From Bacteroidota bacterium (lineage in GTDB: Bacteria; Bacteroidota; Ignavibacteria; SZUA-365), in the NCBI GenBank assembly GCA_003246455.1, contig QKAF01000016.1, forward strand, positions 1-44,657: a DNA stretch of 44,657 nucleotides, written 5' to 3'. Positions 13,615 through 38,438 of this stretch are shown piece by piece; the stretch's first letter is position 1, and the number at the start of each line of letters is the position of its first letter. The notes under the pieces were generated by a model. The model had not been told where the DNA came from and made no database searches. It saw only the letters and a list, made by a program, of their open reading frames with translations. The position numbers were made by a program, and so were the translations under genes.

Positions 13615-13782
13615 GAAAATGTCCTGATAAATATGAATTGAGTGGAAGGTCACAAATTCCCTGAGAAGGGCTAATAGATAAGGTACGAAATTTCTGCAAG
13701 ATCTTGAACGGACGATCACGTCCGTCGAATCCTGCTATTACGGAAAAAATGGTGCAAAGTTGCGCCGCCCCGCCAGAGGGGA

Positions 13783-13851: not shown

Positions 13852-16032
13852 TCAGTCCATTGCGGGGAGACTCCCGCGCTCGAGCTCGCGTGCGACTCGG
13901 TCCGCCTTGAACACGTGGCGCACCGCTTCGAGGATACCGGAGGAGTGGACGGAGACCGTGCGGTTCCCGGCATCTTCGGCGAAGATGAAATCTCCGGGAA
14001 GGCTTTCGATGTTGCCGTCAAAGATCAGTCCCACGATTTCACGATCCCTGTTGATCATCGGGCTGCCCGAGTTGCCGCCGATGATGTCGTTCGTCGATAC
14101 GAAATCCATCGGCGTGGAGAGATCGAGACCTGCGGGCGGTGTCTGCCAGCGCGTCGGCAGTTCCCATTCCTCAACGCCGGGATTGGAGAAGTGCCGATCG
14201 TACAGGCCGTAGAAGGTCGTGTTCACCGGCGCCTGTGTCCCGTTGTACGGGTAACCCTTGACGACGCCATCAGCGATGCGGAGCGTGAATGTCGCGTCCG
14301 GCGGAATATCCGTTCCGTAGACATCGAAGAGCGCGCGGCCCAGGAGGGTCCGGTTCACTTCGTCCTTCGCGCTGGTTTCCCGCGCGACATCGCCTGCCGC
14401 GTCAAGGCGGGGCTGTGCGAGCTTTGCCGCGACGACAAACGGATCCCTGCATTCAGTAAGCGAACCCGGGATTTCCGCGACCAGCGCTTCGAGCTTGCTC
14501 GAATCCGCCAGGATGCTGCCGGCGATCAGGGCCTTGGCCGCATCGCCGCAGGTACGTCCCTGCAGAAGTGTCACGACCACGGGATCATCCTTGCCGAGCT
14601 GCCGGACCATGGATTTGAGCTGACGTTCGAGAGTGAGCAGTTCCATGTCCGCATCGAACGACACGGGCTTGCGGAGCGAACGAAGGGCGAGTTCAATCTT
14701 GTCGCTCTTGAACGCGGGGTTCCGCTCTTCTTCGGGCTTGCCGAGCTGGTCGGCATAGGCGGCGAGTGAAGCCGCTTTCGCGTACAGCAGAGAAACGCCG
14801 AGACCGCCCGAGCGCAGGCCGAAAAGGTCCGGTGCGACGGTGCGCATTTTTTCTCTCGTTTCCGCGATCTCATCCCAGACGTGGCCGTATTTTTCCTTCA
14901 GTTCAGGACGCTTCATGACTTCTGCCTTGAACTGACGATCGAAGTCGCGGCGGCGCTGCATGAGCATATCGTCGCGAAGGCCGTCGAGACGTCCCATGAA
15001 GGACTTCTGTCCGTTGGAGATCCCGAGGATCTGGGTCTTCATTTCGTGCTTCTTCTCGGGGTGCTTTTCCACGTAGAGAAGCATCGCTTCCATGCGGTCA
15101 TTGAGCAGATTGAAGATATACGGGTACTGGACATCACGGTAGTATGCCAGCTGGTCGACGGTGCTCAGGCGGTTCGTACTGCCGGGGTTTCCGATGACGA
15201 ACACCGTTTCGCCCTCCTTCGCGCCCTTCTTGCTCCAGTTGAAGAAATGATCGGGTTTGTACGGCTTTCCATCTTCGTCGTACAGACGGACGAAAGTGAA
15301 ATCGAGACAGTAGCGCGGATAGGTGAAGTTGTCATAGTCGCCGCCGAAATGCGCGATCTGCAGTTCCGGAGCGAGCACGAGCCGCACATCGCTGAAGCGT
15401 TTGTAGATGTAAAGCGAGTAGCGTCCGCCGTGATACAGGGTGACGACCTGTGCGCGATTGCCGGTCTCCGCTTCCGCGGCTTTCTGGATTTCCTCGATCT
15501 TCGCATCGCGGACCTCGAGACGCGCCTCGTCGGTTTCAGCCGCATCCATCGCGGCATGAATGTCCTTGCTTACATCGCGGATCTCCACCAGCTGCTCGAA
15601 ATAGACGTTCGGAATTTTCCTTTCGTCTTCGAGAGTCTCGGCGAAAAACCCGGTGGTGAGGAGGTCTTCCCCTTCCTTCTGGATGCTCGCGAGAGTTCCC
15701 CGCGCGCAGTGATGGTTTGTCATGACGAGCCCGTCGCCGCTGACGAACGATGCCGAACAGCCGGTCGACATGCGCAGAGCGGACATACGGACATCATCGA
15801 ACCAGTCCTGACCCGGATGAAAATCGTAGGTCTTCTGGAAATAATCCACGGGGGCGGCTTCGAAGGTCCACATTCGGCCGCTGTCGAATTTTCCAGCCCG
15901 AACCTGGTCGAGCTGCGCTTTCTTTGCCATGTCATAAGACGACATGTCACCGCTCGATCCGCAGCCGGAGAGCAGTGCAATGGTCATGACGATGGCGACG
16001 GAACGGAGTGCGTTTCGTAGCATCATATTCAT
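13852..16032 (-). CDS. S46-family dipeptidyl-peptidase (DPP7-like), second paralogue, lipoprotein
   Basis: The protein has 726 residues and aligns along its whole length with the protein at 11446-13614. It has a lipoprotein signal with lipobox LLSGC (Cys24), the catalytic His in TNHHC (105-109), Asp in FGGDYDNFTYPRY and Ser655 in GGNSGSP. The specificity position again reads FDGN, which points to DPP7 rather than DPP11. The ATG at 16032 has AGGA six bases upstream. Together the two enzymes would trim oligopeptides in the periplasm for amino-acid fermentation, which fits the nearby iorAB aromatic 2-oxoacid oxidoreductase. The two copies are clearly diverged, so the duplication is old. Confidence 0.93.
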   Translation of the reverse strand: MNMMLRNALRSVAIVMTIALLSGCGSSGDMSSYDMAKKAQLDQVRAGKFDSGRMWTFEAAPVDYFQKTYDFHPGQDWFDDVRMSALRMSTGCSASFVSGDGLVMTNHHCARGTLASIQKEGEDLLTTGFFAETLEDERKIPNVYFEQLVEIRDVSKDIHAAMDAAETDEARLEVRDAKIEEIQKAAEAETGNRAQVVTLYHGGRYSLYIYKRFSDVRLVLAPELQIAHFGGDYDNFTYPRYCLDFTFVRLYDEDGKPYKPDHFFNWSKKGAKEGETVFVIGNPGSTNRLSTVDQLAYYRDVQYPYIFNLLNDRMEAMLLYVEKHPEKKHEMKTQILGISNGQKSFMGRLDGLRDDMLMQRRRDFDRQFKAEVMKRPELKEKYGHVWDEIAETREKMRTVAPDLFGLRSGGLGVSLLYAKAASLAAYADQLGKPEEERNPAFKSDKIELALRSLRKPVSFDADMELLTLERQLKSMVRQLGKDDPVVVTLLQGRTCGDAAKALIAGSILADSSKLEALVAEIPGSLTECRDPFVVAAKLAQPRLDAAGDVARETSAKDEVNRTLLGRALFDVYGTDIPPDATFTLRIADGVVKGYPYNGTQAPVNTTFYGLYDRHFSNPGVEEWELPTRWQTPPAGLDLSTPMDFVSTNDIIGGNSGSPMINRDREIVGLIFDGNIESLPGDFIFAEDAGNRTVSVHSSGILEAVRHVFKADRVARELERGSLPAMD

Positions 16033-16830: not shown

Positions 16831-18102
16831 TTACCAGTCCCCGGACAGCAAAAGGGCGACTTGATGCACGTTGAAGTCATGATAGGCGTTGTTGGACTGG
16901 TTGCGCACGAACCCGTACGCCAGTCCGACCGAGAGTCCGGTCCCGTCCGCCGAACGAAACAGCGGGTAGAATGCCTGCAGCTGCAGCTGCAGACGGAAGT
17001 CGCGCCGCTGCGGATCACCGGGAAGCGCAACGCCGTCGAGATCCGTCGCAGTGCGCGGGTAGCGTTTATCGAGGAGCTGCAGCGTATTCGTCGTGCGAAT
17101 CGCACCGGGGAGCGTGCCTTCGAAGTGGAGCCGCAGTTCGTGCGACTGATACCCGTAATGATCATCGAAGACTTCATCCTCGGAGGTTCCGAAAATCGCA
17201 CCCTCGTTAATGAAACGGGCATCGTTTTGCGGATTGCTTCGCCGGAGATATGAAAGCGCCAGTTCGGCATTCGGGAGCAGATCCCAGGCGACGCCCGCGG
17301 ACAGGACGAACTGCGTCGTCGACGGCGTGGAGAATTCCGAGATGACGGCTCGCGGCGGCTTCACCCCGCCCTTTCCTTTCCCGCTTTTCTTGTCTTCGAC
17401 CCAGAGCGTATCGCTGGTACTCTCGGTGTAGGACTTGTAACCGGCATCGAGACCGGCGAATACGTCGAAGCCGCTTCCGAGCGGCCGGTTGAACAGCAGT
17501 CCCGCGTAGTGTTCGACATGCGTGAACTGCTCAAGATTCGGGTACCGCTTGTATTGCACGGTGTAATGCGGCCGGAGCATGATGTCCTGCCAGAGATACA
17601 GGCGCAGCTTCAGCAGCAGTGATGCGCGCTGGAAATCGTAGAAGTCCCATACCTGCTGATCGAAGCGGCCTCCGACCTGCGGGATAACGAAGAGGTAGGA
17701 AACGAGACTGTCGCTGAACACCTCGGGCTCGCGCGCCTCCGCGGCCTCCCCCTCCCCGCCTTCCCCGTCACCGTTTTCATCGGAATCCTCCGTTGGATCT
17801 TCCCCGCCCCGGTAGTTCAGCTGAATCTGGGTGTAGGCACCCGCGGTATGGATGTGATACGTCCGCTCGCTGTAGGTACGGAACAGCACGACGGCGCCGT
17901 AATAGAATCCCTGCACATACATGAAATCGCTCTGCGTATCGATCGTGGCGGCGCCGAACAGGGAGTGATAGACATCCGCGCGCTTTTCGTAGAACGAAAA
18001 ACTGTTGTCGTCGTACATGCTCGATGTGAACAGCGAGAAATGCTGCGCATGCGCTGCGGCCGTCAGACAGAGAAACAGCGGGACGATCATGACGGATTTC
18101 AT
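16831..18102 (-). CDS. Outer-membrane beta-barrel protein of the polysaccharide operon
   Basis: The protein has 423 residues. The start at 18102 overlaps the stop of the glycosyltransferase gene (ATGA) and gives a signal peptide cleaved near AHA-Q (residue 19). Alternating polar/hydrophobic strands recur to the C-terminus, for example LLLKLRLYLWQDIMLRPHYTV, and the chain ends in an aromatic (SGDW), as expected of an outer-membrane barrel. A long Asp/Glu/Gly-rich segment (about residues 100-128) would form an acidic loop, and a Lys/Gly-rich loop (KKSGKGKGG) lies further on. By position it is a candidate export channel for the polymer, in the role of PgaA/BcsC/PelB, but it lacks their TPR region. 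An alternative is a structural or adhesin barrel. I do not recognise a named family. Confidence 0.75.
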   Translation of the reverse strand: MKSVMIVPLFLCLTAAAHAQHFSLFTSSMYDDNSFSFYEKRADVYHSLFGAATIDTQSDFMYVQGFYYGAVVLFRTYSERTYHIHTAGAYTQIQLNYRGGEDPTEDSDENGDGEGGEGEAAEAREPEVFSDSLVSYLFVIPQVGGRFDQQVWDFYDFQRASLLLKLRLYLWQDIMLRPHYTVQYKRYPNLEQFTHVEHYAGLLFNRPLGSGFDVFAGLDAGYKSYTESTSDTLWVEDKKSGKGKGGVKPPRAVISEFSTPSTTQFVLSAGVAWDLLPNAELALSYLRRSNPQNDARFINEGAIFGTSEDEVFDDHYGYQSHELRLHFEGTLPGAIRTTNTLQLLDKRYPRTATDLDGVALPGDPQRRDFRLQLQLQAFYPLFRSADGTGLSVGLAYGFVRNQSNNAYHDFNVHQVALLLSGDW

Positions 18103-19373
18103 TGTGGCGCGTCCTCGATTTTGAAGCGTGTCGTCTTTGCCCACGACATGGATTCCTTTCTGATGACGTCCTTGTAAAACGCGAGGCCCACCACGACGAG
18201 CCAGAGCTGACAGTAGGTAAGATACATCACGCCGATCAGAAGAAGCGCCAGCGGGGTATCTTCCCGATCGTAGGAGAGCGCCAGCATGATTTCCGCGAAA
18301 AACAGCACTACCGCCATGATCCAGACCAGCGTGTAGGGACCGGGCAGCGGGATGGCAATGACCCCGGTGCCGGCAAGAAGGAAGAGGATATCCGAGATGA
18401 GGATCGCGACGAAAAAGACGTAATACAGTGCGATGGAATAGAGCAGTTCGAAACGCAGCCGGAAGCTGGGAATCTTTTTCCGTTCCTTGAGAAATTTTGT
18501 CGATACGTAGTTGTTTCCGCGTACCCATCGCGTTCTCTGACGCAGCCAGACGCTCCAGGTTTCCGGCTCCTGCTCCCAGGTCACGGAATACGGGATGAAC
18601 TTGATCTTCCATCCGGCAATATACATGCGGATGCTGAGTTCCGAATCTTCGGTGATCGCATCCTCGTCCCAGCCGTTCATTTCCTCGATCACCTCCCGCC
18701 GCATCAGGAAGTTCGTGCCGGGGAGCGTTGCCACACGCAGCAGCTTCCAGCGTCCGGCCTGCAGAATGGACTGGAAGCTGAGCGTCTCGATATTGATGAA
18801 GCGCGTCAGAAGCGTACGGGTCTTGTTGACGGTGCGGAATTTCCCCAGCACGGCGCCCAGTTCGGGATGCAGCAGCAGCTGCGCGGCGAGATAGCGCAGC
18901 GCCGACGGCTCGGGAGTATTGTCCGCGTCATAGATCGCGATATACGGATGCGAGGCCTGTGCGAGGCCGAGATTCAGGGCACGGGACTTTCCCTTCCCTC
19001 CCTGTCCCGCAGGTACGTCATAACAGATCACCCGTGAGTCCCGCGCGGCATACTCCTTGATGATTTCTCCCGTCCTGTCGCTGCTCCCGTCATTGATGAC
19101 GATGATTTCCAGCCGGTCTTCCGGGTAGTCGAGGGCGCACATTGCATCGAGCGTCCGCCCGATGACAATCTCTTCGTTGTGTGCCGGGATGAGAATGGAT
19201 ACCGGCGGGTAGTCGAAGTCCATCCCGTCGATCTTCCGCCGCTCGCGCAGGGAGGCGCTTTCATGAAAATACCCCGCGAGCGTGAGCAGCAGCTGCCACC
19301 CGATCATGAACCAGATCAGAATGACCGCGACCACGAACAGTCCGGCTGCGATTTGCTGTACGGTTTCAATCAT
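18099..19373 (-). CDS. Processive family 2 glycosyltransferase (PgaC/BcsA-like polysaccharide synthase)
   Basis: The protein has 424 residues. It has an N-terminal membrane helix (about 8-34), a GT-A catalytic domain (about 55-300), and three or four C-terminal membrane helices (about 308-400). Catalytic motifs of processive GT2 enzymes are all present: NDGSSDR (D95), DADN (149-152), TEDSE (241-245) and QRTRW (279-283, the QxxRW motif). Such enzymes polymerise a beta-linked sugar from a UDP-sugar and push it across the inner membrane. The size and layout are closest to PgaC/IcaA or hyaluronan-type synthases rather than the larger BcsA with its PilZ domain; no PilZ is present. It overlaps both neighbours by four bases. 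The sugar cannot be read from the sequence, but the deacetylase next door suggests an N- or O-acetylated polymer. Confidence 0.9.
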   Translation of the reverse strand: MIETVQQIAAGLFVVAVILIWFMIGWQLLLTLAGYFHESASLRERRKIDGMDFDYPPVSILIPAHNEEIVIGRTLDAMCALDYPEDRLEIIVINDGSSDRTGEIIKEYAARDSRVICYDVPAGQGGKGKSRALNLGLAQASHPYIAIYDADNTPEPSALRYLAAQLLLHPELGAVLGKFRTVNKTRTLLTRFINIETLSFQSILQAGRWKLLRVATLPGTNFLMRREVIEEMNGWDEDAITEDSELSIRMYIAGWKIKFIPYSVTWEQEPETWSVWLRQRTRWVRGNNYVSTKFLKERKKIPSFRLRFELLYSIALYYVFFVAILISDILFLLAGTGVIAIPLPGPYTLVWIMAVVLFFAEIMLALSYDREDTPLALLLIGVMYLTYCQLWLVVVGLAFYKDVIRKESMSWAKTTRFKIEDAPQ

Positions 19374-22300
19374 CGTCCCCCCTCCCGGACTGCAACGGCG
19401 GCAAGGCGTGTGAACCTGCGCCTGCGCACGCGGACCATCACGTACAGTATCATGAGAAGGATCAGTGAAACGATGCCGAAGAGCACGATGAAGGTCGACG
19501 ACCAGAGACTCGTCAGATTGATGCTGTACGAGACGGTTCCTTCGGTAATGATCCGTACCCGATGGGTTCCCGGGGGCAGCTGCACGGAGTAGCGCTCGAT
19601 GCCTTCACGGATGGGAACATCGACGGATTCGCCATCGATGATCACTTCAATCGGTTCCTTGTTTGTCGTTGCAAAACAACGCTCACCGCTTTCGTAGCTG
19701 AAGGAAATGCTCCGTTCTCCTTCCTCGATCGACAGGACGTTTCCCGTGCATGAGAGCAGCGTCGCATGGAGGGTATTCGGGTCGAAATACCCTTCGCCCT
19801 TCTCCTCCAGGGAAATGACATGCCGTCCGGCGGGGATGAGGAATCGTCCGTCGCCTGCCGCCGTGCGCACCACCCCCCCAACGCGTACGAAGCGCTGGCT
19901 GGGTCCGAGGTGCAGTGTCAGGGAATGCGGCGACGTGACGACATAGCCGTCTTCAGCGCGACGGATTTCCGCTCTGCCGGTCGATGCGAAGGCGAACAGC
20001 GGAAAATCCTGGGGATTGACGCTCGACTCGGCGTACACGAGTGTGCGGTTTACCTCGCTGCTGCTGGAGCGGAACAGATGAAACGCTTCGATACCGGACT
20101 GCACCAGCGAGGGAAATGCCGTGGGACTCGATTCACTGCGGAAGGCGAGAATGTTCACGTCCAGCGCGAAGTCGTCGCCCAGGAGCGCGCGATACACCTC
20201 CGCGATGTCATGATAGCGGCGGGGATCCTCCGACCAGCGGGACATCGGGTCCTCGACGACGAGCGTGAAGTCGAATTCCTTCTTCAACGCAATGATTCTC
20301 CGCATGTCCACTCCCTGTGAACGGCGGAGCTCCGGGGTGCCGATCTGGTCGAGCATGGTCACCATGACGCCGAACCCGGGTTTTCCGCGGCGGATCTCCT
20401 CCGCCAGTGTCAGAATCCTGCGATGCATGCGCGTGACCACGTCGACGCGGTAGTCCTCGAACTGTCGCCATGCGGCGGGATTCCGCTTCCAGTAGCGAGG
20501 CGATGCCTCATCGAAAAGCTCCCGGGGATCGAAGCCGCTGCGTGCGCGGAATTCCTTTCTCGCGCTGGGATGCATGGGCGCAAAGCTGCCGGGTTCCTGG
20601 GGGCCGCGCACGTCGGATTCGAAGTACAGTTCCCCGATGTTCACGCCGTCGAAATCATGCATGTTGAGGAAGCGCCGATAGTCGCGAAGCATGGCGGAGA
20701 CGCAGGCGGAATCCGTCATCGCCAGCGGGTACCGCCACGACGCGCGGTTGTCGACCCCGTGGACATTTTTCTCGCGCCATTCGGGATGCGCCTCCCAGAA
20801 CTTATGACTGACCTGCGGAGGCTCGAGCCATGCGTAGACGAGGATGCCGTTTTGATGGCACAGCCGAATCAGCCGCTCGTAGTCATAGGTGTAGGCATGG
20901 TAATCATGCCAGCTTCCGACGTAGATCGTGCGCACGCCGTTATTCACCCATCGGCGCACGAGTGTTTCTATCGGAATGTTGTTTCGGAAGCCGGGATCGA
21001 AGTACATCTCCAGCGCGTCGCGCCGGAACGCCGGGTGAAGATCCGCCAGCTTCGCCACATACTGCATCAGGTACGGATAGCGGCTGAATCCGCCGTCTCC
21101 GAGCGGATCGAAGCGCGTACCGAGATACAGCAGCTGTCCCTTGCCGAAGCGCCGCCCGATCACGACCGGCGCCTCCGTTTCCGGATCGGCGGCAAAGGTG
21201 ACATCGCCCGGCTCGATTTCGAACTTGTGCGACGGCGTGCGGTACTGCCAGATAATCCGTTCCTCCGGATAGAGACGTTCGCGCAGTCCGGTCAGCGATA
21301 TCGTCGAGCCGGTAAACTGCAGCCCCAGTTCGAGTGCGAAATCCGTTTTTCCGTCGAGGATCACGTTTCCTCCCTTTCGTACCCATTCCACGAGTTGGCT
21401 GAAGAGCGGATTCTCGAGGCGTTCGACCGCGGCATACGGAACGACGAGCAGGTTGCAGCCGCGCAGTGCGAACGGCGATTCAATATGGAGGGTATCGGGT
21501 TCGACCCCGAGCGTTCGAAACGCGGAGACGAAACTCTGCTGATCTCGCATCCCCCCTCCGGTCGCAAGCGAGTCCCAGAGTACCGTCACCCGCATTTCCG
21601 CACGGGTGTCCTTCTCCTCGAACAGGTCGTCATACCACGACCGGAGTTTCCGCGCGATGCGGTCGACGAAGCTGTCATGAACCTGCCGGATCTCCGTCGG
21701 CGTCGCGAGATAGAGTTCTCCATCGCGCAGCGTAACGGACTTCCGGACAATGCCCGACCGCCGGGCGGATGACACGGAGGTCCGGGCAACATTGCCTTCA
21801 CGGTCGAACCAGTATTCACGCAGGTATTGATCCTGCAGCTCGATCGTGATGTCCCCTCCGCCGGTTACGATCGCCTTGTCGCGCAGGCGCACAACGTTTC
21901 GCTGCCGCTGCAGGTCCATGAACGTGTATCCTTCCGAGCGGAAGCCGCGGACGAGGCGGCGCAGATTTTCCAACGGGACGAAAGAGTGAAAGAAACAGGA
22001 AGCGAACCCGTCGCGGACGGCCAGGTTCGTCCGGGCGAATTCGAGCATCCGTGTGACCTGTGTCGCCGAGGCAGACGGATCCTGCGGATCCACCGGCACG
22101 TACCCGAGATTTTCGGCATACAGTTTCTGGCCGTGCTGGTCATGGTAAATGGTGTACGGAAAAAACTGCGTGTAATCCGCATTGTCGATCGCACAGCGCT
22201 GTTCCATCGCGGAAGAGAACATCGTGGCGACCGCGTCGTACGTGATCATCGATCCCGTGTAATGCGGCGTTTCCCACACGATCGGGTAGATGCCGTTGCG

Positions 22301-23323
22301 GATGCACTCTTCGAGGCCGTCCGTCACTTTCGCCCGCACGTACTCCATCGTCTCGTGTTCGATCGGCGCATTGGTGGCCACGTTCCAGAATTCGTAGTCG
22401 ACCGCGGTCACGCCCCGGTATTGATGCGTCGCGCCGTGCATGACGATCGCAGCACCCTTGCGGACCATGTAATGGATGGCGTCGACGAGATCGGGCTTGT
22501 CCGTCAGGCTGACCCGAAGTCCCGCTTCGGTATCGATGTAGAACGGGATGAGCCCGACGGCGAACGGGACGCCTTCGTCATGCAGCACGTCGGCGACCTT
22601 GCGCAGCCGTTCCGGATCCTCGAGCGGATTGATGTCCTCGATGCGGATCAGGGCGCGGTGTGAGACCGGATGGTTCTCGCCGAGGATGTCATGGAGAAGA
22701 TCCGCGAACAGCAGGTAGCGGTCGTTCTCGTAGGCCAGCGCAAACGGAGAATCCGCCACATACCAGAAGCTGCCGCTGCGAAGGATGTAGGGCGTGCGTC
22801 CTTTGCGGCGCGATACCGCCGTCGCCACCTCACGGCACTTCTTCGAATCGGTGATGCGGCACAGGGTGATGTTCGGTTCCGTCTTCGTAAAAACGTCGGT
22901 CCCGCGGCGAACTTCCGTCCACCCGCGTGCGGTGTCGACGGAGACCGCGGTGAAACCGAACCGTGCGGCGATATCATGCGCACGGCCGAAGGCGGTCATC
23001 CCGGTATGCATCCAGATTGCCGTCCGTGTGCGCTTGCCCATGTCATCCATGAATGCCGGCGGCGGACTGCATCGCAGTGTGTATCCGATAAACGCCACGA
23101 CATCATACTTTTCCATTTCACCGCGACGATACTCCTCCACGGAACGGACGTCGCAGCGGGTCTTGAAATGCCCGAGCAGCTGGGCGAGCTGGAAAGCATC
23201 ACCCCGACCGAGATTCGTTGGCACGTCTCGTCCTTCGAAGAGGACCAGGACACTCTGCTGCGCCGACACATTTCCGGCGAGCAGAACGACCAGCAGCAGC
23301 ATGCCGAGCGTGCGGCCGTTCAT
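19370..23323 (-). CDS. Multidomain DUF2334 deacetylase / GATase-like / TIM-barrel hydrolase-like membrane protein
   Basis: The protein has 1317 residues. A signal peptide (1-21) is followed by an alpha/beta region (25-215) of unknown role and a polysaccharide-deacetylase-type DUF2334 domain (about 222-480) with IRIEDINP (226-233) and HGATH (H296, H300), the expected metal-site segments. A class I glutamine-amidotransferase-like alpha/beta domain (about 577-762) comes next. Then comes a TIM-barrel hydrolase-like domain (about 770-1090) starting at MYFDPGF and including VYAWLEPP and DGVNIGELYFE (892-902; E898 a possible acid). A beta-sandwich tail and one C-terminal membrane helix (about 1272-1297) with a basic cytoplasmic end anchor it. 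It should deacetylate and perhaps cut a polysaccharide in the periplasm, like PgaB or PelA, but the domain order differs. Both ends overlap neighbours by four bases. Confidence 0.8.
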   Translation of the reverse strand: MNGRTLGMLLLVVLLAGNVSAQQSVLVLFEGRDVPTNLGRGDAFQLAQLLGHFKTRCDVRSVEEYRRGEMEKYDVVAFIGYTLRCSPPPAFMDDMGKRTRTAIWMHTGMTAFGRAHDIAARFGFTAVSVDTARGWTEVRRGTDVFTKTEPNITLCRITDSKKCREVATAVSRRKGRTPYILRSGSFWYVADSPFALAYENDRYLLFADLLHDILGENHPVSHRALIRIEDINPLEDPERLRKVADVLHDEGVPFAVGLIPFYIDTEAGLRVSLTDKPDLVDAIHYMVRKGAAIVMHGATHQYRGVTAVDYEFWNVATNAPIEHETMEYVRAKVTDGLEECIRNGIYPIVWETPHYTGSMITYDAVATMFSSAMEQRCAIDNADYTQFFPYTIYHDQHGQKLYAENLGYVPVDPQDPSASATQVTRMLEFARTNLAVRDGFASCFFHSFVPLENLRRLVRGFRSEGYTFMDLQRQRNVVRLRDKAIVTGGGDITIELQDQYLREYWFDREGNVARTSVSSARRSGIVRKSVTLRDGELYLATPTEIRQVHDSFVDRIARKLRSWYDDLFEEKDTRAEMRVTVLWDSLATGGGMRDQQSFVSAFRTLGVEPDTLHIESPFALRGCNLLVVPYAAVERLENPLFSQLVEWVRKGGNVILDGKTDFALELGLQFTGSTISLTGLRERLYPEERIIWQYRTPSHKFEIEPGDVTFAADPETEAPVVIGRRFGKGQLLYLGTRFDPLGDGGFSRYPYLMQYVAKLADLHPAFRRDALEMYFDPGFRNNIPIETLVRRWVNNGVRTIYVGSWHDYHAYTYDYERLIRLCHQNGILVYAWLEPPQVSHKFWEAHPEWREKNVHGVDNRASWRYPLAMTDSACVSAMLRDYRRFLNMHDFDGVNIGELYFESDVRGPQEPGSFAPMHPSARKEFRARSGFDPRELFDEASPRYWKRNPAAWRQFEDYRVDVVTRMHRRILTLAEEIRRGKPGFGVMVTMLDQIGTPELRRSQGVDMRRIIALKKEFDFTLVVEDPMSRWSEDPRRYHDIAEVYRALLGDDFALDVNILAFRSESSPTAFPSLVQSGIEAFHLFRSSSSEVNRTLVYAESSVNPQDFPLFAFASTGRAEIRRAEDGYVVTSPHSLTLHLGPSQRFVRVGGVVRTAAGDGRFLIPAGRHVISLEEKGEGYFDPNTLHATLLSCTGNVLSIEEGERSISFSYESGERCFATTNKEPIEVIIDGESVDVPIREGIERYSVQLPPGTHRVRIITEGTVSYSINLTSLWSSTFIVLFGIVSLILLMILYVMVRVRRRRFTRLAAVAVREGGR

Positions 23324-25650
23324 TTCGTCACCAGGATTTCTTTCACCGCGAACGCATCTTTCGATTGAAGCGCGACGATGTATGCGCCTGACGCCCCGAA
23401 TGCTGCCGCCGGCACTTCCAGCGATACGCCGTCATCTCTTGCATCGACGCTGCGCGCGTAAACGATTCGGCCCGCTGCGTCGGCAATGGTCAGTGCAGCA
23501 TCCATTCCCCCCGTGCGCAGCGCGAGATGCAGGTCCGCTTGCACAGGCTGCGGCCACGCGTCAATGGAAAATGGAATCCGCACTCCTTCTCCGGAGACAC
23601 TGATTTCGGGCCCATATTCCACCTCTCCCGCCATACCGATTATTTTCAGACGATATCGAAAGGTCTCATCCGACATCTGGCAGTCGTACCAGTGATACGC
23701 CCCGCCCTCGGTTCCTGCGGAAGGAAAGAACGCGATGTCTGTCCAGTCCTCGCCGTGCGATCGCTGCAGCGCGATGCCCAGGTGCGCGATTTCGCGAACG
23801 GTTTGCCAGTCCAGGCGGACACAGCCGTTTTCGCGCCGCGCGGTGAATCCCGTCAGCTCGACGGGATACGGGTAGCTCGTATTGCGGAGACCGAGTCCGA
23901 AATCGCCGACGGCATACACCGTCCCGCCGTGCGCATCGGCTCCGTAAAAGGTGTACATGGCATGGGATATCTCACGCACCCAGCTCTGTCCGCTGTTGCT
24001 GGTGCGCATGATGACGCCGTCGGCGCCCACCGCGGCATACTCTCCCGGGGCGGGATGCGTCAGGCGAAACAGCGGAACCGTCGTGGGGACGGGGACAGTG
24101 GTCCACGAAACGCCGCCGTCATCGGTATATATCACGGTTCCCGCGTCACCACAGATCATTCCGTGGTCCCCTTCACGGATCACGCTGAACAGTGCGTCGA
24201 GCGTCCACCCCTGCTGCGCGCTCCAGGTATATCCCCCGTTCGTCGTACTGATCACCGTTCCCGCGGCGCCGACGACAGTACCGTGATCGGAATCCGTAAA
24301 ATGCACGCCGAAGAGAGGCTGAAGCGTCCCGCTCGCGACATTGTACCAGCCGGCTCCCCCGTTCGTCGTTTTCAGGATGCGACCGCTGCTTCCGACGATG
24401 TATCCGATTCCGTTGTCGAGCAGATCGATACCGTTGAGGGATACACCGACGCCGCTGGATACCGAAGACCAGCTCTGTCCGCCGTTCGTGCTGCGGACGA
24501 TGACTCCCCCGTTGCCGCAAGCGACGACCGTGCTCCCGTTGATGTTGTCGACCGCGAAGAGGGCCTGAGTCGTCCCGCTGGAGAGCGGCTGCCAGTACTG
24601 TCCGGCGCTCTGCGTCATGACGATCTCCCCGTCACTGCCCACCGCCCATGCCGAACCGGGAATGGCCGCGCTCACGGCGTTGAGCGTTCGCCGTGAGCCG
24701 CTGGTGATCATCGAGCAGCCTGCCCCGTTCGCGGAGCGCAGGATGTCGCCGAATACTCCCACGGCGACCACCGATGTCCCGGAAGCCGCGAGTCCCTCGA
24801 GTCCGTTCAGTGTCCCCGTGGTCACCGCAGACCAGGTTGTCCCGCCGTTGGTGCTGCGAAGCATCGTGCCCCCTTCTCCCGCCGCCCAGCCGTTCTGCAT
24901 GCCGTCGAAGACGATGCGATTCAGATCGGCCGTCGTCCCGGAGTTCACGGTGATCCAATTGAGTCCTCCGTCCGTGCTGCGCAGGATGTGTCCGCCCGTG
25001 CCGGCCGCCCAGCCGTGGAGCGCGTCGGTGAAGCGGACATCGATCAGATCGAAGGTCATCCCTGCGAACCAGACGGGGGTCCAGGTCAATCCGGCGTCGG
25101 TGGTGCGAATCATCGTTTTCGAACTCCCGACGGCGAAACCGACGGAAGGAGACGTAAAGAACACCGCATTCAGGTTGAACTGCGTGCCGGTGCTTCGCGG
25201 GATCCAGGACTGACCGCCGTTGGTTGTCGTATGCAGCATGCCTGCATCGCCGACGAAGGCTGCCGACGAAGCGGAGACGGCACGGATCACGTTGATCCCC
25301 GCCGTGGTGCCGCTGGCCTGCTGATGCCAGCTCGAGCCGCCGTCACTTGTCTTGAGGACGACGCCGTTATCGCCGACGACCCACGCCGTCTGGGAATCGA
25401 CGGCTTCGACGCCCCGGAAAAAATCTTCATGTCCGCATTCTTGCGTCTGCCATGTCATTCCGCCGTCCATCGTTTTGACGATCATGCCGGCACCGCCTGC
25501 CGCCCATCCCGTGCTGCTGCCCGGGGCGAAGGCGACATTCCACAGATCATTCCCCTGCGGTGCGGGATTGCTCCATTGCCACTGCGCATGGAGGGGAGAC
25601 GCGAGAAGGAAAACGGCTTGAACGATCAGGAGTTTGCTTGACAGGCGCAT
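23320..25650 (-). CDS. Secreted Ycf48/BNR-repeat beta-propeller protein with type IX sorting tail (first of pair)
   Basis: The protein has 776 residues. I chose ATG 25650 because it gives a signal peptide cleaved near LHA-Q and has AAGGA six bases upstream; a TTG eight codons earlier is also open. About 13 repeats of roughly 40 residues follow, each with the Ycf48-type core GWAxGxxGxIlrTtdGGxsW (examples near the start: GWAAGGAGMIVKTMDGGMTW, AWVVGDNGVVLKTSDGGSSW). This suggests one or two beta-propellers. The C-terminus (about 690-776) looks like a Por/T9SS type A tail: WPQPVQADLHL, then LTIADAAGRIVYA and GAYIVAL. The protein is therefore probably surface-attached or released. Its stop overlaps the start of the deacetylase fusion (ATGA), tying it to polysaccharide production. 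Confidence 0.85.
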   Translation of the reverse strand: MRLSSKLLIVQAVFLLASPLHAQWQWSNPAPQGNDLWNVAFAPGSSTGWAAGGAGMIVKTMDGGMTWQTQECGHEDFFRGVEAVDSQTAWVVGDNGVVLKTSDGGSSWHQQASGTTAGINVIRAVSASSAAFVGDAGMLHTTTNGGQSWIPRSTGTQFNLNAVFFTSPSVGFAVGSSKTMIRTTDAGLTWTPVWFAGMTFDLIDVRFTDALHGWAAGTGGHILRSTDGGLNWITVNSGTTADLNRIVFDGMQNGWAAGEGGTMLRSTNGGTTWSAVTTGTLNGLEGLAASGTSVVAVGVFGDILRSANGAGCSMITSGSRRTLNAVSAAIPGSAWAVGSDGEIVMTQSAGQYWQPLSSGTTQALFAVDNINGSTVVACGNGGVIVRSTNGGQSWSSVSSGVGVSLNGIDLLDNGIGYIVGSSGRILKTTNGGAGWYNVASGTLQPLFGVHFTDSDHGTVVGAAGTVISTTNGGYTWSAQQGWTLDALFSVIREGDHGMICGDAGTVIYTDDGGVSWTTVPVPTTVPLFRLTHPAPGEYAAVGADGVIMRTSNSGQSWVREISHAMYTFYGADAHGGTVYAVGDFGLGLRNTSYPYPVELTGFTARRENGCVRLDWQTVREIAHLGIALQRSHGEDWTDIAFFPSAGTEGGAYHWYDCQMSDETFRYRLKIIGMAGEVEYGPEISVSGEGVRIPFSIDAWPQPVQADLHLALRTGGMDAALTIADAAGRIVYARSVDARDDGVSLEVPAAAFGASGAYIVALQSKDAFAVKEILVTK

Positions 25651-25660
25651 CGGGTTCCTT

Positions 25661-27760
25661 TCAGAAACAGACAAGGAGACGGGATTCAGAATGATCAGGC
25701 CAGGCCAGGACGATGAGATAGGTCCCGGGCGTCGGAAAATACTCCCGGGGGATATGTATCGTCATTCCTGCGCCGATGGCGCTCAGGCTGCGGGTCAGAT
25801 CGCGCACTTTCCGACCCAGGGCGTCATAGAGCGCGAGCGTCGCTGGCGGATTCCCGGGAAGAGGCGCGATGGCGATTTCAACCGCATCCCGGAAGGGGTT
25901 GGGGTATGGGGCGGCGAGATACGATTCCGCGACCGGCGCGGGCGGAAGAATACCCGTCGTTGAATTCTTCCATGTGAGCACTGTGGCATAATCCCCGGAT
26001 ATCCATCCGTGCGTGGGGGAAACGAAATCGAGACCGAAAAGATCGTAGCGGGTGCGGGCGTAGCGTCTCTGCCAGCTGCTGCCCGCGTCGCTGCTGAAAA
26101 GGACTGTTCCGCTGTCCCCGACCGCCCACAGCGTCTCGCGCGAAGGAGCATCCACGACATACAAGGGACGCTGCGTGCCGGTCGCCTGCAGCGCCCAGCT
26201 TGCACCTGCATCCGTCGTATGGAGAATGCTGCCGAGTTCTCCGGCAATCCAGCCTTCCGCATCGCTGACGAAGCAGGGCCAGTACAGTGTCGTGCCGGTC
26301 CCGCTCGGCTGCGAATGCCAGCTGGCCCCGCCGTCGAAACTGCTGAGCACGAGGCCGCCATCGCCGACGACAACGAGATGCGTGGCGGATACCGCGTCGA
26401 TGCCGAAAAGATAATTTTCCGTCCCGCTCTCCTGCCGCAGCCAGGAGGCGCCGCCATCCGTGGTTCTCAGGATAATCCCCAGTTCTCCAACAGCCCATCC
26501 CCGGTTTTCGTCGATGAAGTCGACGGCCAGGAGAATGTTGCTGTAATCGTTCTGCTGCTGCTGCCAGCTGCTTCCCCCGTCGGTCGTCGCCAGGATGATC
26601 CCGAATTCACCGACAGCCCAGGCTTTCCGGTCGCTGACGGACTTCCCGCCGTAAAGACTGTTCCCGAGGATCGCGGTTTCTTCCCGCCAGCTTCCGCCGC
26701 CGTCGGTGCTGTGGAGTATGAGTCCGTCCTCGCCGAAGCACCACCCGTTCGACTCGTCGGCGAAGCTGATCCAGTTCGCGGATTTTCGCGACTCCGGATT
26801 CGCAATCACCCAGGTGAGACCCGTGTCGGTGGACCGCAGCATATGCCCGAATTCACCGACGGCGAGCAGCAGGTTCGCGGTACCCGTAATGCTTTCCAGC
26901 ACGGAATTCGGCAGCAGCACCGGAAGCGCGATCCAGTCGGCGCCGCTGTTGCTGCTGTGGAGCATGGTTCCTCCGTCGCCGACGATCCAGATTTCCGAAC
27001 TGGAACGCAGCAGCATGCCGTTCAGATGCCGAGTCGAACCGCTGTTCTGCCGGTCCCAGCGAAATCCGCCGTTCACCGTGTGGAAGATGCTTCCCCGGGT
27101 GCCGCAGATCCATCCGTTTCCCGCATCCGCGAAGGCCACGGAGAAAAGGTCTTCGGGCGGGGACAGCTTCGTCACGTCCCATGCGGCTCCGGCGTCACCG
27201 CTGCGAAGGACGGTCCCGTTCTCCCCGACAATGACGCAGCCCACCGCACCTACGGGAGCGACGCCGTTGAGGGAAACGCTCACGCCGCTCGGAACCGTTG
27301 CCCAGGTCGCCCCGGCATCAGTGGTACGGATGATCGTGCCTGCGTCACCGCACGCGACACCGATATCCGCGGTAATGAATGAGATCGCATTGAGTCCCTG
27401 CGTGGTGACCGACTGACGGTCGATCCAGTCGAGCCCCCCGTTCGTGCTCTCGAGCAGGATTCCGTTGTCTGCCACGGCCCACAGCCGTCCCGGGCCAGCT
27501 TCGACGGATTGCAGGACGTTGTCGGTCAAGCCGAACATCGTATGCTTCCATGAAGCGCCCGCATCGCTGCTGCGGAGGATGGTACCGTAGTGGCCGGTTG
27601 CGATCAACGTGCCGTCGCTCGTGGCGGTGACGGACATCAACATGTTCCCCTGTGGATCGGGGTGCTGCCATTCGAGGGTGGTCTGTCCCTGCAGCATCGC
27701 GGCGTTCAAAATGACACCGAACAGCAGAATGAGAGAGAGAGTAATTTTCAACGGGTTCAT
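25661..27760 (-). CDS. Secreted Ycf48/BNR-repeat beta-propeller protein with type IX sorting tail (second of pair)
   Basis: The protein has 699 residues from ATG 27760, or 707 from ATG 27784. Either start gives a signal peptide (hydrophobic LKITLSLILLFGVILNAAM). The 27784 start has GGAG eight bases upstream, inside a hairpin; the 27760 start has a purine run very close to it. There are 13-14 Ycf48-type repeats (for example GVACGDAGTIIRTTDAGATW and GWAVGELGIILRTTDGGASW). The C-terminus is a clear T9SS type A tail: APYPNPFRDAVEIAI, then LALYDALGRKVRDL and PGTYLIVL. It is a paralogue of the next gene, which starts ten bases after its stop. It appears to be the first gene of the polysaccharide operon. 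Its function may be polymer or surface binding; that is inference. Confidence 0.87.
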   Translation of the reverse strand: MNPLKITLSLILLFGVILNAAMLQGQTTLEWQHPDPQGNMLMSVTATSDGTLIATGHYGTILRSSDAGASWKHTMFGLTDNVLQSVEAGPGRLWAVADNGILLESTNGGLDWIDRQSVTTQGLNAISFITADIGVACGDAGTIIRTTDAGATWATVPSGVSVSLNGVAPVGAVGCVIVGENGTVLRSGDAGAAWDVTKLSPPEDLFSVAFADAGNGWICGTRGSIFHTVNGGFRWDRQNSGSTRHLNGMLLRSSSEIWIVGDGGTMLHSSNSGADWIALPVLLPNSVLESITGTANLLLAVGEFGHMLRSTDTGLTWVIANPESRKSANWISFADESNGWCFGEDGLILHSTDGGGSWREETAILGNSLYGGKSVSDRKAWAVGEFGIILATTDGGSSWQQQQNDYSNILLAVDFIDENRGWAVGELGIILRTTDGGASWLRQESGTENYLFGIDAVSATHLVVVGDGGLVLSSFDGGASWHSQPSGTGTTLYWPCFVSDAEGWIAGELGSILHTTDAGASWALQATGTQRPLYVVDAPSRETLWAVGDSGTVLFSSDAGSSWQRRYARTRYDLFGLDFVSPTHGWISGDYATVLTWKNSTTGILPPAPVAESYLAAPYPNPFRDAVEIAIAPLPGNPPATLALYDALGRKVRDLTRSLSAIGAGMTIHIPREYFPTPGTYLIVLAWPDHSESRLLVCF

Positions 27761-27979: not shown

Positions 27980-28001
27980 AACATTAATAAAATGTAATGT
28001 T
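27980..28001. promoter_or_regulatory. Inverted repeat, possible operator
   Basis: AACATTA and TAATGTT flank an eight-base AT-rich spacer. The symmetric layout is typical of dimeric regulator sites, and it lies about 80 bases before the archease start in the divergent promoter region. No regulator can be named. Confidence 0.3.
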
Positions 28002-28080
28002 GGGAAATCATGCCTTCCCCTCTCGCGGATGTGTATATTTCACGATGAAGCGCGGATGCGACCGCAGGTTATCGGGCAGA

Positions 28081-28521
28081 ATGATGCATGTAAACAACAC
28101 CGTACCGGATTTCGAGGAACTCGAGCACACCGCGGATATCGCCATCCGGGTGCGCGGCCATTCGCTGGCCTCCCTGTTCGAGAACGCGTCCCGGGGAATG
28201 GTTGCACTGATTTCCGGCGGAACGTTCGAAGATGCTCCTGCCGAACGCCGGAGTATCCGTGTCGAAGCGGACCGGACGGATGCACTCCTCCGGGAGTGGC
28301 TTTCGGAAATAATCTTCCTGATTTCCGTGGAGCGTGCCCTCCCGGTTCGCTACGCGTTCGAGGGCATTGACGAACGGTCCGCTGCCGCGATCCTCGACAT
28401 CGTACCGATGACGGAGGAGGTCGCGCGGAATGCGACGGAAATCAAGGCAGTGACCTGGCATGGACTCCGCGTGGAAAGGACTCCGGGTGGATTCATGGCT
28501 GAAGTGGTATTCGATACGTGA
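28081..28521 (+). CDS. Archease-family protein
   Basis: The protein has 146 residues, the normal archease length. The start of the mature fold, FEELEHTADIAIRVRG (about 9-24), is the family signature; the acidic residues EHTAD and the later Asp/Glu residues (VEADRTDALLREWLSEI) contribute to metal binding. The C-terminus ends in the conserved strand GFMAEVVFDT. Archease activates the RtcB RNA ligase by promoting its guanylylation and turnover. The gene overlaps rtcB by four bases (GTGA). I chose the double ATG at 28081 because homology begins there; the frame is open to 27997 but that extension is Arg/Cys-rich and unlike the family. Confidence 0.9.
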   Translation: MMHVNNTVPDFEELEHTADIAIRVRGHSLASLFENASRGMVALISGGTFEDAPAERRSIRVEADRTDALLREWLSEIIFLISVERALPVRYAFEGIDERSAAAILDIVPMTEEVARNATEIKAVTWHGLRVERTPGGFMAEVVFDT

Positions 28522-29993
28522 ACGTTGGTGGGATGGCAATGCAGCAGAATCTTCCTGTCCTCCTCAAGCAGCTCGATGCGAACCTGTGGGAAATTCCCGC
28601 AACGGGAAAGATGCGGGTGCCTGGACGCGTGTACGCCAGCAGTGCAATGATGCGGGCCATTGAAAAGGACCAGAGTCTGCAGCAGGTCGTGAACGTCGCG
28701 CATCTTCCGGGCATCGTCAAATACTCCCTTGCCATGCCCGACATACACTGGGGATACGGATTTCCCATCGGCGGCGTGTGCGCGACGCACAGGGACGACG
28801 GCGTGGTCTCACCCGGAGGCGTGGGCTATGACATCAACTGCGGGGTGCGGCTCATCGCAACCGCGTTGGACGCTGACGAGCTGCGGCCGCGGATCAAGCC
28901 CCTGCTGTCCGGACTGTTCCGCCATATTCCGACTGGAGTCGGCGCCTCGAAGGCCATTCCGAAGCTCAACCGCTCAGAATTGCATGCGGTCGCGGTGGAA
29001 GGCGCCCGGTGGGCGGTGCGCAGGGGTTTCGGGACGAGCGCGCAGCTCGAACGCATCGAGGAACACGGCTGCCTTGCCGAAGCAGAACCCGAAGCGGTCG
29101 ACGATCGTCCCTGGCAGCGTGGTGCGGATCAGCTCGGCACCCTCGGTTCGGGGAATCATTTTCTCGAAATCGGGATGGTGGAGGAAATCTACCATCCGGA
29201 GGCCGCGCGCGTCTTCGGACTGCAGACCGGAAAAATCGTGGTGATGATCCACTGCGGTTCGCGGGGATACGGGTATCAGATCTGTGACGATTACCTGAAA
29301 GTTGCGCTGCGGGCGACAGAGAAATATGGCATCAGCGTCCCCGACCGGCAGTTGGCCTGTGCTCCCATTCGGAGCGAAGAAGGACGCGCCTACCTCGGGG
29401 CCATGCGCTGCGCGGCGAACTACGCTTTTGCGAACCGGCAGATCATCATGCACCTGGCAGAACAGTCGTTCATGGAAACCCTGGGACTGTCGCAGCGCGA
29501 GCTTGGGTTTCAGCTCATCTACGACATCTGCCACAACATCGCGAAGTTCGAGTCGCATGAGGTTGACGGAGAAACGGTTGACGTCTGCATGCACCGGAAA
29601 GGGGCGACGCGGGCGTTCGGGCCGGGAAATCCCGGGATTCCTGTCGAATTTCGCGGCGTCGGTCAGCCCGTGCTCATCCCCGGAGATATGGGCCGGTATT
29701 CCTTCCTCTCCGTGGGGACGGAGCGGGCGATGAAAGAAACCTTCGGAAGCAGCTGCCACGGCGCGGGAAGGCACATGAGCAGGAAAAAAGCCATGGCGGA
29801 GAGCCGGGGCCACGATATGATCGGCGAACTGCGCGATCGCGGTGTCGAAATCCAGGCGACGGGATTGCGCACGATCGCGGAGGAAATGCCGCACGCATAC
29901 AAGGATGTCGCCGACGTGGTCAACGTGATGCATGACGCCGGCATCACGCTGAAAGTTGCGAAGTTCAAGCCTGTAGGCGTAATTAAAGGTTGA
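28518..29993 (+). CDS. rtcB: RtcB-type 3'-phosphate RNA ligase
   Basis: The protein has 491 residues from GTG 28518, which overlaps the archease stop (GTGA). ATGs at 28533 and 28539 are also possible; GGTGGG lies seven bases before 28539. The RtcB core is complete: MPDIHWGYGFPIGG, GVGYDINCGVR (metal-binding Cys about residue 108), GSGNHFLEIG, HCGSRG, HNIAKFE and CHGAGRHMSRKKA, the last holding the guanylylated histidine region. RtcB joins RNA ends carrying 2',3'-cyclic phosphate or 3'-phosphate to 5'-OH ends using GTP and Mn2+. In bacteria it serves RNA repair. The coupled archease supports this role. Confidence 0.96.
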   Translation: MNVGGMAMQQNLPVLLKQLDANLWEIPATGKMRVPGRVYASSAMMRAIEKDQSLQQVVNVAHLPGIVKYSLAMPDIHWGYGFPIGGVCATHRDDGVVSPGGVGYDINCGVRLIATALDADELRPRIKPLLSGLFRHIPTGVGASKAIPKLNRSELHAVAVEGARWAVRRGFGTSAQLERIEEHGCLAEAEPEAVDDRPWQRGADQLGTLGSGNHFLEIGMVEEIYHPEAARVFGLQTGKIVVMIHCGSRGYGYQICDDYLKVALRATEKYGISVPDRQLACAPIRSEEGRAYLGAMRCAANYAFANRQIIMHLAEQSFMETLGLSQRELGFQLIYDICHNIAKFESHEVDGETVDVCMHRKGATRAFGPGNPGIPVEFRGVGQPVLIPGDMGRYSFLSVGTERAMKETFGSSCHGAGRHMSRKKAMAESRGHDMIGELRDRGVEIQATGLRTIAEEMPHAYKDVADVVNVMHDAGITLKVAKFKPVGVIKG

Positions 29994-31428: not shown

Positions 31429-33213
31429 TCAGATTTCTTCTTTCACTACACCGCACTTGAGCATTTTCTCGCCGAAATACGGGTTTCTGATTTCCTTCCG
31501 GGGGCTGAGCCAGTTCGCCCCCCTGTCGTCGAACGCCATCGGGCAGTGCTGCCAGTAGATCGCGCCTTCACCGGCACCGAAGGTTTTTACCGCGCGGTAG
31601 AGTGCATTGCTGAGGCCGGAATACTGCGCCCGCTGCGCTTCGACATCCCGCGTTGCCAGGATGGCGTCGAGCTTCTGCCTGAGTTCCGTGGAGAGTTCTG
31701 CCCACGCGACGCGGGAAGCCTGCGGCAGCGAGGCGACATCGACACTGGCCAGGGCGTCCCGCATCTTTTTCACGGAGGCGACTGCGGCGACGGGGTCCGT
31801 TTCCACCAGATCGGCAGTCAGGCCGCTGTACCGCTCGAACACCGTCCGAAGCTGCCGCTGGAAGGCGGCCGGCGCTTCTGTTCCCCCGGCGGCCGGCTGC
31901 GTCCCCGATACGGCAGCACCGTGGGTACCGTGTTCGTGTCCCATGACGGTCTTCCCGCCGGCAGGATTCATCATGCTGGTTTTACCCTGCAGCTGTGCGG
32001 CGGCGTCGATGGCGAAAACGCCGTTCGAAACGATCTCCTCCCCTTCAGACAGCCCGTCCAGTATCACGTAGCTGTCGCCTGCTTCCTCGCCGAGCGTCAC
32101 TTCCCGGAATGAGAACGCGGGCAGATCGCTCTGCGGATCCTTCACCCAGACGACGGCGCGTTCCCCGGTCCAGAGTACCGCGGAGCGCGGAACGAGGAGC
32201 GCATCGTGCTTTCCGGGCAGCATGCTCTTGACAACGCCGGTCGCGAACATATCCGGTTTCAGCACGCCGGCGGGGTTCGGCATCTCCACACGCACACGCG
32301 CGACGCGCGTCATGGGATTGATCACCGGATCGATGAATGCAATGCTGCCCCTGTGCGTGACACCCGCCTGCCCGGCGACCGTGAATGTCACGGGCATGCC
32401 GGTACGCAGCCAGGCGAGGTCGCTTTCATAGGCGTCGAACTGCGCCCAAACCCTCGAGAGATCAGCGATGGCGAACATCCCCTGTCCCTGGCGGACGTAG
32501 TCGCCCGTGAGCACATGGCGCGCGAGGACGGTACCGCTCTGCGGAGCGAGAATGTCGACGATTCCCCGCACGTTCGCTTCCTGTTCCATTTCCGCAATCT
32601 GTTCCGGCGTAAAATCCCAGTAGCGCAGCTTGTTCTTCGCGGCTTCGTAGTACGCCGGGTTGCGCGACTTCAATTTCGCCGCTTCGCTCAGTTCCTTCTG
32701 TGCGGCGAGCAGTTCCGGTGAGTAGATCGATGCGAGCTTCATGCCCTTGCGCACGACCTGGCCGGTACTGTTCACATACAGCTGCTCGATGCGTCCGGAG
32801 ACGCGGGCTGTGATCTCCGCGCGGCGCGTTTCATCGGCTTCGATGCGGCCCGGCATGCGAATTTCCCGGTACGGCATGCCGTGCGCCACGGTTGTTGTCT
32901 GCACATTCGCCGCTGCGACCGCCTCCGGGGTCATTTGCAGCAGACCCGGATCAGCGGCAGCATCGTCAGCCTCCAGCGGAATCAAATCCATACCGCAGAT
33001 AGGGCACTGCCCCGGTTCCGGCTGCCGAATATTCGGATGCATCGAGCAGGTCCAGATGGTCCCGGCATTCTCTCCGGAATGCACGTGACCGTCCGCTTCG
33101 GCGCTTCCGCCTCCGGCGAAAAACATCCAGCCGAGGAAGATTCCGATTGCGACCAGCAGGACGCCGGGAATAACGTTCTTCAGCGGGAGAAGGGATTTCC
33201 ATTCTGTATTCAT
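31429..33213 (-). CDS. cusB: CusB-family RND efflux adaptor with N-terminal metal-binding domain and DUF3347 tail
   Basis: The protein has 594 residues, longer than E. coli CusB (407). A membrane anchor (about 14-32) is followed by a heavy-metal-binding domain with WTCSMHP and CPICGMDL (about 54-80). The membrane-fusion core comes next (about 110-430), with GRIEQLYVNSTGQVVRKGM and the beta-barrel ending near EIVSNGVFAIDAAAQL, followed by a linker containing MGHEHGTHG. The C-terminal DUF3347 region (about 465-594) contains YWQHCPMAF and ends CGVVKEEI. This extended form is common in Bacteroidota. It bridges the RND pump and the outer-membrane channel and probably collects Cu(I)/Ag(I). It starts four bases after the stop of the TolC-like gene. 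Confidence 0.93.
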   Translation of the reverse strand: MNTEWKSLLPLKNVIPGVLLVAIGIFLGWMFFAGGGSAEADGHVHSGENAGTIWTCSMHPNIRQPEPGQCPICGMDLIPLEADDAAADPGLLQMTPEAVAAANVQTTTVAHGMPYREIRMPGRIEADETRRAEITARVSGRIEQLYVNSTGQVVRKGMKLASIYSPELLAAQKELSEAAKLKSRNPAYYEAAKNKLRYWDFTPEQIAEMEQEANVRGIVDILAPQSGTVLARHVLTGDYVRQGQGMFAIADLSRVWAQFDAYESDLAWLRTGMPVTFTVAGQAGVTHRGSIAFIDPVINPMTRVARVRVEMPNPAGVLKPDMFATGVVKSMLPGKHDALLVPRSAVLWTGERAVVWVKDPQSDLPAFSFREVTLGEEAGDSYVILDGLSEGEEIVSNGVFAIDAAAQLQGKTSMMNPAGGKTVMGHEHGTHGAAVSGTQPAAGGTEAPAAFQRQLRTVFERYSGLTADLVETDPVAAVASVKKMRDALASVDVASLPQASRVAWAELSTELRQKLDAILATRDVEAQRAQYSGLSNALYRAVKTFGAGEGAIYWQHCPMAFDDRGANWLSPRKEIRNPYFGEKMLKCGVVKEEI

Positions 33214-33217
33214 CTTC

Positions 33218-38325: not shown

Positions 38326-38438
38326 GATGACAAATCCGTTTTGATGATGAAACGTCACGGTGTCCCGCATGGGGATACACGAATGCCATCCGGAACGGAC
38401 ATGGCGATGCCGTTCCAGTCAAAGGGACTTGCCGGAAA

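Follow-up and report, generated by a model that had tools for sequence, protein, structure and literature searches.

A putative diderm variant of the Pss/Yda exopolysaccharide systems in Ignavibacteria

Synthase-dependent matrix polymers are known mostly from cultured Proteobacteria and Firmicutes. They include poly-N-acetylglucosamine (PNAG; PgaABCD), Pel (PelA-G), Bcs cellulose and the Pss/Yda type, represented by Listeria pssA-E and Bacillus subtilis ydaJKLMN. The pssA-E operon has been described (PMC4125290), and its product is reported to be a β-1,4-linked N-acetylmannosamine (ManNAc) chain carrying α-1,6-galactose (PMC5422440, PMC6307706). Gene order in the Listeria record used here agrees with pssA-E (PMC4125290): a membrane protein, a DUF2334 protein, a family-2 glycosyltransferase (GT2), BcsB and a diguanylate-cyclase-like protein. 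The DUF2334 protein, PssB, is named as the exopolysaccharide deacetylase in a review. Here we describe a five-gene operon on the minus strand of contig QKAF01000016.1, at positions 16831-27760, from a Bacteroidota bacterium of the class Ignavibacteria; “the window” denotes the whole stretch of 44,657 nt that was analysed. The operon is a variant of the Pss/Yda type and not a member of it, because two defining partners, the BcsB-like protein and the degenerate GGDEF protein, are absent. On the evidence set out below, it is probably the diderm version of this type of synthase-dependent exopolysaccharide system.

The operon and its closest described relatives

The genes run in the order ycfA, ycfB, fusion, GT2, barrel. 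There is a gap of 10 nt between ycfA and ycfB, and ATGA overlaps join ycfB to fusion, fusion to GT2, and GT2 to barrel. The features are as follows.

25661..27760 (-): ycfA, predicted secreted Ycf48/Asp-box β-propeller with a C-terminal sorting tail of the type IX secretion system (T9SS) type (PF14870, 183 bits)
23320..25650 (-): ycfB, second Ycf48/Asp-box β-propeller (PF14870, 165 bits)
19370..23323 (-): fusion protein, 1317 aa
21941..22657 (-): DUF2334 deacetylase domain of the fusion, residues 223-461 (PF10096, 165 bits)
21356..21538 (-): glycoside hydrolase family 42 (GH42)-type trimerisation/glutamine amidotransferase (GATase)-like domain of the fusion, top-scoring stretch residues 596-656 (PF08532, 24.8 bits, cut-off 25.8)
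19913..21022 (-): TIM-barrel hydrolase-like domain of the fusion, residues 768-1137 (structural match to PgaB)
19433..19489 (-): C-terminal transmembrane anchor of the fusion, residues 1279-1297, with a basic tail after it (hydropathy; conserved in the alignment)
18099..19373 (-): GT2, processive family-2 glycosyltransferase of PssC type (Pfam GT2 families, 124 bits)
16831..18102 (-): 16-strand outer-membrane β-barrel with a signal peptide and no tetratricopeptide repeat (TPR) part, candidate exporter (structure model)

A preliminary description of this DNA had proposed five genes on one strand with three ATGA junctions and a ten-base gap, all of which the coordinates bear out. Pfam confirms its assignments of the Ycf48 repeats, DUF2334 and GT2, and places the GATase-like domain just under the cut-off. 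That description had also read the locus as an exopolysaccharide-synthase operon, which the kinship of the GT2 with PssC and the conservation of the fusion-GT2 pair in relatives support.

In a tblastn search against annotated plasmid records, some of them apparently pieces of chromosome, the GT2 is 44% identical to Listeria PssC over 97% of its length and 46% identical to an Enterococcus homologue (again 97% of length), as against about 28-29% to IcaA/PgaC. Its identity to BcsA is 23%. It shares 45 positions with PssC that it does not share with IcaA/PgaC, and its 1 + 3 hydrophobic helices follow the PssC pattern. The motifs DGSSD (95), DAD (149), TED (241) and QRTRW (279) are all present, and the catalytic motif residues are invariant in 26 fusion-linked GT2s. 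In a tree, PgaC/IcaA occupies a long separate branch and PssC adjoins the fusion-linked group. The preliminary description had regarded a firm grouping with lipid or protein glycosyltransferases as fatal to its reading; the GT2 falls instead with PssC, which makes an exopolysaccharide. A PNAG synthase as its closest family was rejected on the same figures (44% identity to PssC, about 29% to IcaA/PgaC). The best NCBIfam model for the GT2 is nonetheless PgaC/IcaA, at 177.7 bits against an equivalog cut-off of 422.3, a match that is misleading because direct comparison favours PssC; the BcsA model gives 81 bits against a cut-off of 699.

The likeness extends to the neighbouring gene. As in Pss/Yda, a DUF2334 protein sits beside a GT2 of this type; the direct sequence comparison was with the listerial proteins. 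The listerial DUF2334 protein too carries a signal at its N terminus and a membrane helix at its C terminus, and PssB, a divergent DUF2334 (23 bits), matches the DUF2334 domain of the fusion with an hhalign probability of 95%. In the fusion, by contrast, DUF2334 retains its metal and acid residues and shares one chain with a trimerisation-type domain and a TIM barrel like that of PgaB. The operon also differs from Pss/Yda in adding an outer-membrane barrel and T9SS-type propellers.

The preliminary description had measured the operon against PNAG, Pel and cellulose, but the listerial pssA-E and ydaJKLMN operons are closer. With PNAG it shares a membrane GT2 and an outer-membrane barrel, and its predicted periplasmic fusion resembles PgaB in joining a deacetylase to a TIM-barrel hydrolase-like domain. 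It differs from PNAG in a GT2 scoring far under the PgaC cut-off, a deacetylase of the DUF2334 family, a hydrolase alike by fold alone, a barrel without TPR, and no PgaD gene in the operon (PgaA and PgaD were not searched for elsewhere in the genome). The operon has no room for PgaD, since its junctions overlap or span 10 nt. Pel, too, has a modification enzyme of several domains that include a deacetylase and a TIM barrel, and PelB ranks among the best fold matches for the barrel of the operon; in contrast to Pel, GT2 takes the place of PelF and the domain order differs. No PelG, PelD, PelE or further transporter gene lies in the operon (the genome as a whole was not searched for Pel). Cellulose synthesis shares a processive GT2 with DxD, TED and QxxRW motifs and a BcsC-like barrel fold, but identity to BcsA is low, and the genome has neither PilZ, with no match anywhere, nor BcsB (no PF03170 match, with a positive control search in B. 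subtilis). The genome encodes two GGDEF proteins, both outside the operon, which itself contains no cyclic di-GMP (c-di-GMP) module. The earlier statements that the operon lacks a PilZ/c-di-GMP module and is not a simple copy of the Pga, Pel or cellulose systems both hold. The literature searched contains no published description of this gene set, in keeping with the earlier label “undescribed”, and no text on DUF2334 with exopolysaccharide or on Ignavibacteria in that connection.

The fusion-GT2 pair and its donor sugar

The fusion is the sole DUF2334 match in its genome and is present in single copy. Its domains are, in order, a signal peptide, an N-terminal α/β domain, the DUF2334 deacetylase, the GH42-type trimerisation (GATase-like) domain, the PgaB-like TIM barrel, a β domain and the C-terminal membrane anchor; an AlphaFold model of residues 22-1215 has a mean pLDDT (predicted local distance difference test score) of 87.8. 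The signal peptide and C-terminal helix suggest that the protein is periplasmic and held at the inner membrane. In the deacetylase domain, R227, E229, D230, H296, H300 and H446 do not vary across 37 sequences drawn from several phyla, and the domain looks intact. The spacing of H296 and H300 equals that of the metal-binding H600 and H604 of PelA (H-x3-H; PMC12022489). In the TIM barrel, D892, E898, D1025 and E1099 are invariant among fusion relatives. The preliminary description had proposed a structural comparison with Pga proteins, and the top match of residues 768-1137 is indeed the C-terminal hydrolase domain of E. coli PgaB (4p7l; Z 26.6, root-mean-square deviation (rmsd) 3.7 over 315 residues), with BpsB and GH42 enzymes next in rank. 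A link to PgaB at the level of sequence was rejected (hhalign probability 0.6%), so support for it comes from the fold. A search of PDB sequences with the fusion profile gave weak matches to α-galactosidase (E 0.008), which were not used. A mannose-type substrate was likewise set aside, as the Foldseek leaders that would point to it (GH164/GH5 β-mannosidases and GH42) aligned with rmsd >25 and were uninformative on specificity.

How widely is this arrangement conserved? Among 61 genomes (the window's own and 60 relatives), the fusion was matched in 18: its own, 16 with long orthologues (40-82% identity) and one with a weak partial match. In a phylum-wide sample, about 4% of genomes have a full-length fusion, all within the window's class. 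A scan of public genomes found fusion relatives in 140; the best 80 of these, nearly all metagenome-assembled genomes, belong by record title to Ignavibacteria, Kapaibacteria, Kryptoniota, Bacteroidales, Acidobacteria, Spirochaetes, KSB1, Elusimicrobia and Desulfobacteraceae. Where flanking sequence sufficed for a test, GT2 lies directly downstream of the fusion in 73 of 75 loci, across several phyla, and 3-4 kb away in the remaining two. This gene order is shared far beyond chance, and the fusion-GT2 pair is the conserved unit. In 21 of 61 testable loci the next gene after GT2 encodes a barrel homologue. The order of the operon is mostly kept in the window's family; in other families of the class, fusion and GT2 persist and the remainder varies. 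The complete five-gene set is found only in the window's own family, as is the propeller pair, with single propellers in other loci. Of the conserved neighbourhood for which the preliminary description had proposed a search, the fusion-GT2 pair stands, but roughly one locus in three keeps the barrel and one family alone keeps both propellers.

Some loci (L numbers are those of the analysis) show further variation. Three Bacteroidales loci carry a second, shorter protein of about 730 aa on the opposite strand just after GT2 (L077:5920-8118, L081:8186-10372 and L100:15261-17456, minus strand), 31-32% identical to part of the fusion; the L081 copy has no Pfam match. The fusions in L099, L107 and L110 are longer, about 1680 aa. 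A protein of 277-302 aa with an N-terminal signal-like stretch follows GT2 in these three loci and L113, and belongs to no family in a scan that covered L099, L107 and L113. It is perhaps another outer-membrane protein.

Which sugar does the synthase use? A UDP-N-acetylglucosamine (UDP-GlcNAc) 2-epimerase forms UDP-ManNAc from UDP-GlcNAc. In 27 loci the gene immediately upstream of the fusion encodes such an epimerase (PF02350, 407 bits), mostly with gaps of <60 nt. Because the epimerase is present in these 27 related loci, the polymer is likely to be built from ManNAc, and UDP-ManNAc is the likeliest donor of the GT2. The same epimerase is found near more distant GT2s of the PssC kind in Acinetobacter, Latilactobacillus (L. 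sakei) and Streptomyces. The genome of the window encodes three such epimerases, one of which has a median identity of 44%, and up to 49%, to the fusion-linked ones. In other operons, from A. baumannii (L128), A. variabilis (L123) and L. sakei (L129), a related GT2 lies near wecB; there is a BcsB-like protein in L128 and a GH8 hydrolase in L129.

Export, surface proteins and competing explanations

The barrel matches no Pfam family over the cut-off. Its model (pLDDT 79.7) has 16 strands that start right after the signal peptide, with no periplasmic TPR part, and VIA-align places PelB (Z 18.9) and BcsC (Z 18.5) on top. The modelled fold is compatible with a role in export. Barrel and Ycf48 propeller co-occur above expectation (15/23 vs 6/38, Fisher p = 0.0002, lineages not corrected for). 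Some loci have further barrel homologues close to the operon that score less well (L054:475-1626, L060:7881-9026 and L048:2481-3617; 174-176 bits), which suggests that barrels have been duplicated. The two propellers are probably secreted by the type IX system. The tail of ycfA scores 17.6 bits against TIGR04183 (cut-off 23), its orthologues in the family reach 24.8-25.2 bits and several more distant ones 39-49, and two of three ycfB orthologue tails lie just under the cut-off at 21.7-21.8 bits. The genome also encodes the T9SS core protein SprA. Our guess is that the propellers act on the polymer.

We propose the following mechanism. A WecB-type epimerase, encoded in trans here and beside the fusion in many relatives, would make UDP-ManNAc from UDP-GlcNAc. 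The inner-membrane GT2 would polymerise this donor and thread the chain across the inner membrane. There the fusion, held by its C-terminal helix with the remainder in the periplasm, would meet the chain; its DUF2334 domain would strip some acetyl groups and its PgaB-like TIM barrel would cut the chain. The partly cationic chain would then pass the outer membrane through the 16-strand barrel, and propellers, probably secreted by the type IX system, may bind it at the surface. The predicted product is a partly deacetylated poly-ManNAc-like exopolysaccharide. On this reading the core would work as the synthase pair of Pss/Yda does, fitted to an envelope of two membranes by modification of the PgaB and PelA kind and by the outer-membrane barrel. 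We put forward more tentatively the broader possibility of a distinct and widespread class of outer-membrane-spanning secretion for deacetylated poly-ManNAc, defined by one anchored deacetylase/trimerisation-type/hydrolase enzyme, a TPR-less 16-strand barrel exporter and T9SS propeller partners at the surface.

Several observations weigh against a diderm Pss/Yda system. In the tree, PssC falls outside the fusion-linked GT2s, with weak support for the deep forks. Listerial PssB (L119:3488-4984) lacks a hydrolase part as well as the HxxxH and E-D residues conserved without exception in the DUF2334 domain of the fusion, the BcsB-like PssD/YdaN is missing from the genome of the window's organism, and the degenerate-GGDEF PssE/YdaK is missing from its operon. 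The operon of the window's own family includes no epimerase. The barrel fold is no proof of export because CdiB, FhaC and BamA, which are non-exporters, tie with PelB and BcsC as matches. In roughly two loci out of three GT2 has no barrel after it, so diderm lineages without it must export the chain otherwise; the barrel-less loci share no alternative exporter, since what comes next differs from locus to locus (amidase, phosphoesterase, transglycosylase, shikimate dehydrogenase, no family). Finally, two of the three other genomes of the genus (G001 and G002, drafts 88% and 96% complete) have no fusion, and the distribution of the locus may therefore be patchy even within the genus.

There are three competing explanations. 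In a PNAG-like system, the GT2 would use UDP-GlcNAc to make a β-1,6 or β-1,4 GlcNAc polymer and the fusion would be an analogue of PgaB. The top rank of the PgaC/IcaA model (178 bits), the likeness of the TIM barrel to the PgaB hydrolase above all others and the joining of deacetylase and hydrolase as in PgaB are what it would predict, but that score stands against a cut-off of 422 bits, the GT2 is closer to PssC, the fusion has no sequence kinship with PgaB, the operon has no PgaD gene or TPR, and the epimerase is linked in 27 loci. We therefore regard it as unlikely. The epimerase itself could be read differently: epimerases of the WecB type commonly take part in making envelope glycans, and a neighbouring one might serve general envelope glycans while the GT2 makes an exopolysaccharide or capsule of other or mixed sugars. 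The window's own family has no epimerase in the operon, and tblastn finds weaker relatives of the GT2 in Streptomyces and in halophilic archaea, so the wider GT2 family is used broadly. The 27 tight epimerase-fusion pairs, the epimerases near distant GT2s in other phyla, and the fit of the whole enzyme set to an N-acetylated sugar polymer make this explanation more doubtful still. The product might also not be secreted into a matrix at all but stay fixed as a glycan of the cell wall or surface, with the propellers as surface proteins that it anchors and the barrel as an unrelated porin. Such a glycan would accord with the absence of barrel and propellers from some loci and with the tie between the top barrel matches and general transporters, but it is very improbable given the co-occurrence of barrel and propeller and the tight ATGA coupling of barrel to GT2.

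What would a diderm Pss/Yda system imply? For Ignavibacteria, Kapaibacteria, Kryptoniota, deep Bacteroidota and some Acidobacteria, lineages mostly known just from metagenome-assembled genomes, the locus offers a specific matrix system that can be put to the test. It would link ManNAc polymers of the listerial kind with bacteria that possess an outer membrane, and it unites deacetylase and hydrolase in one chain, like PgaB and PelA. It also raises the question of whether listerial PssB, without the residues kept in the fusion, is an active deacetylase.

Flanking genes

Two tandem S46 peptidase genes (13852-16032 and 11446-13719) follow the operon, and most of the family retains them. Divergent from the operon, on its upstream side, are genes for archease and the RNA ligase RtcB (27997-29993), which adjoin the operon in most of the family. 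Farther along the window, at 31429-38370, genes for an HlyD-type adaptor with a heavy-metal-binding domain, an outer-membrane efflux protein and an AcrB-type pump lie in a row, and are probably a metal efflux set.

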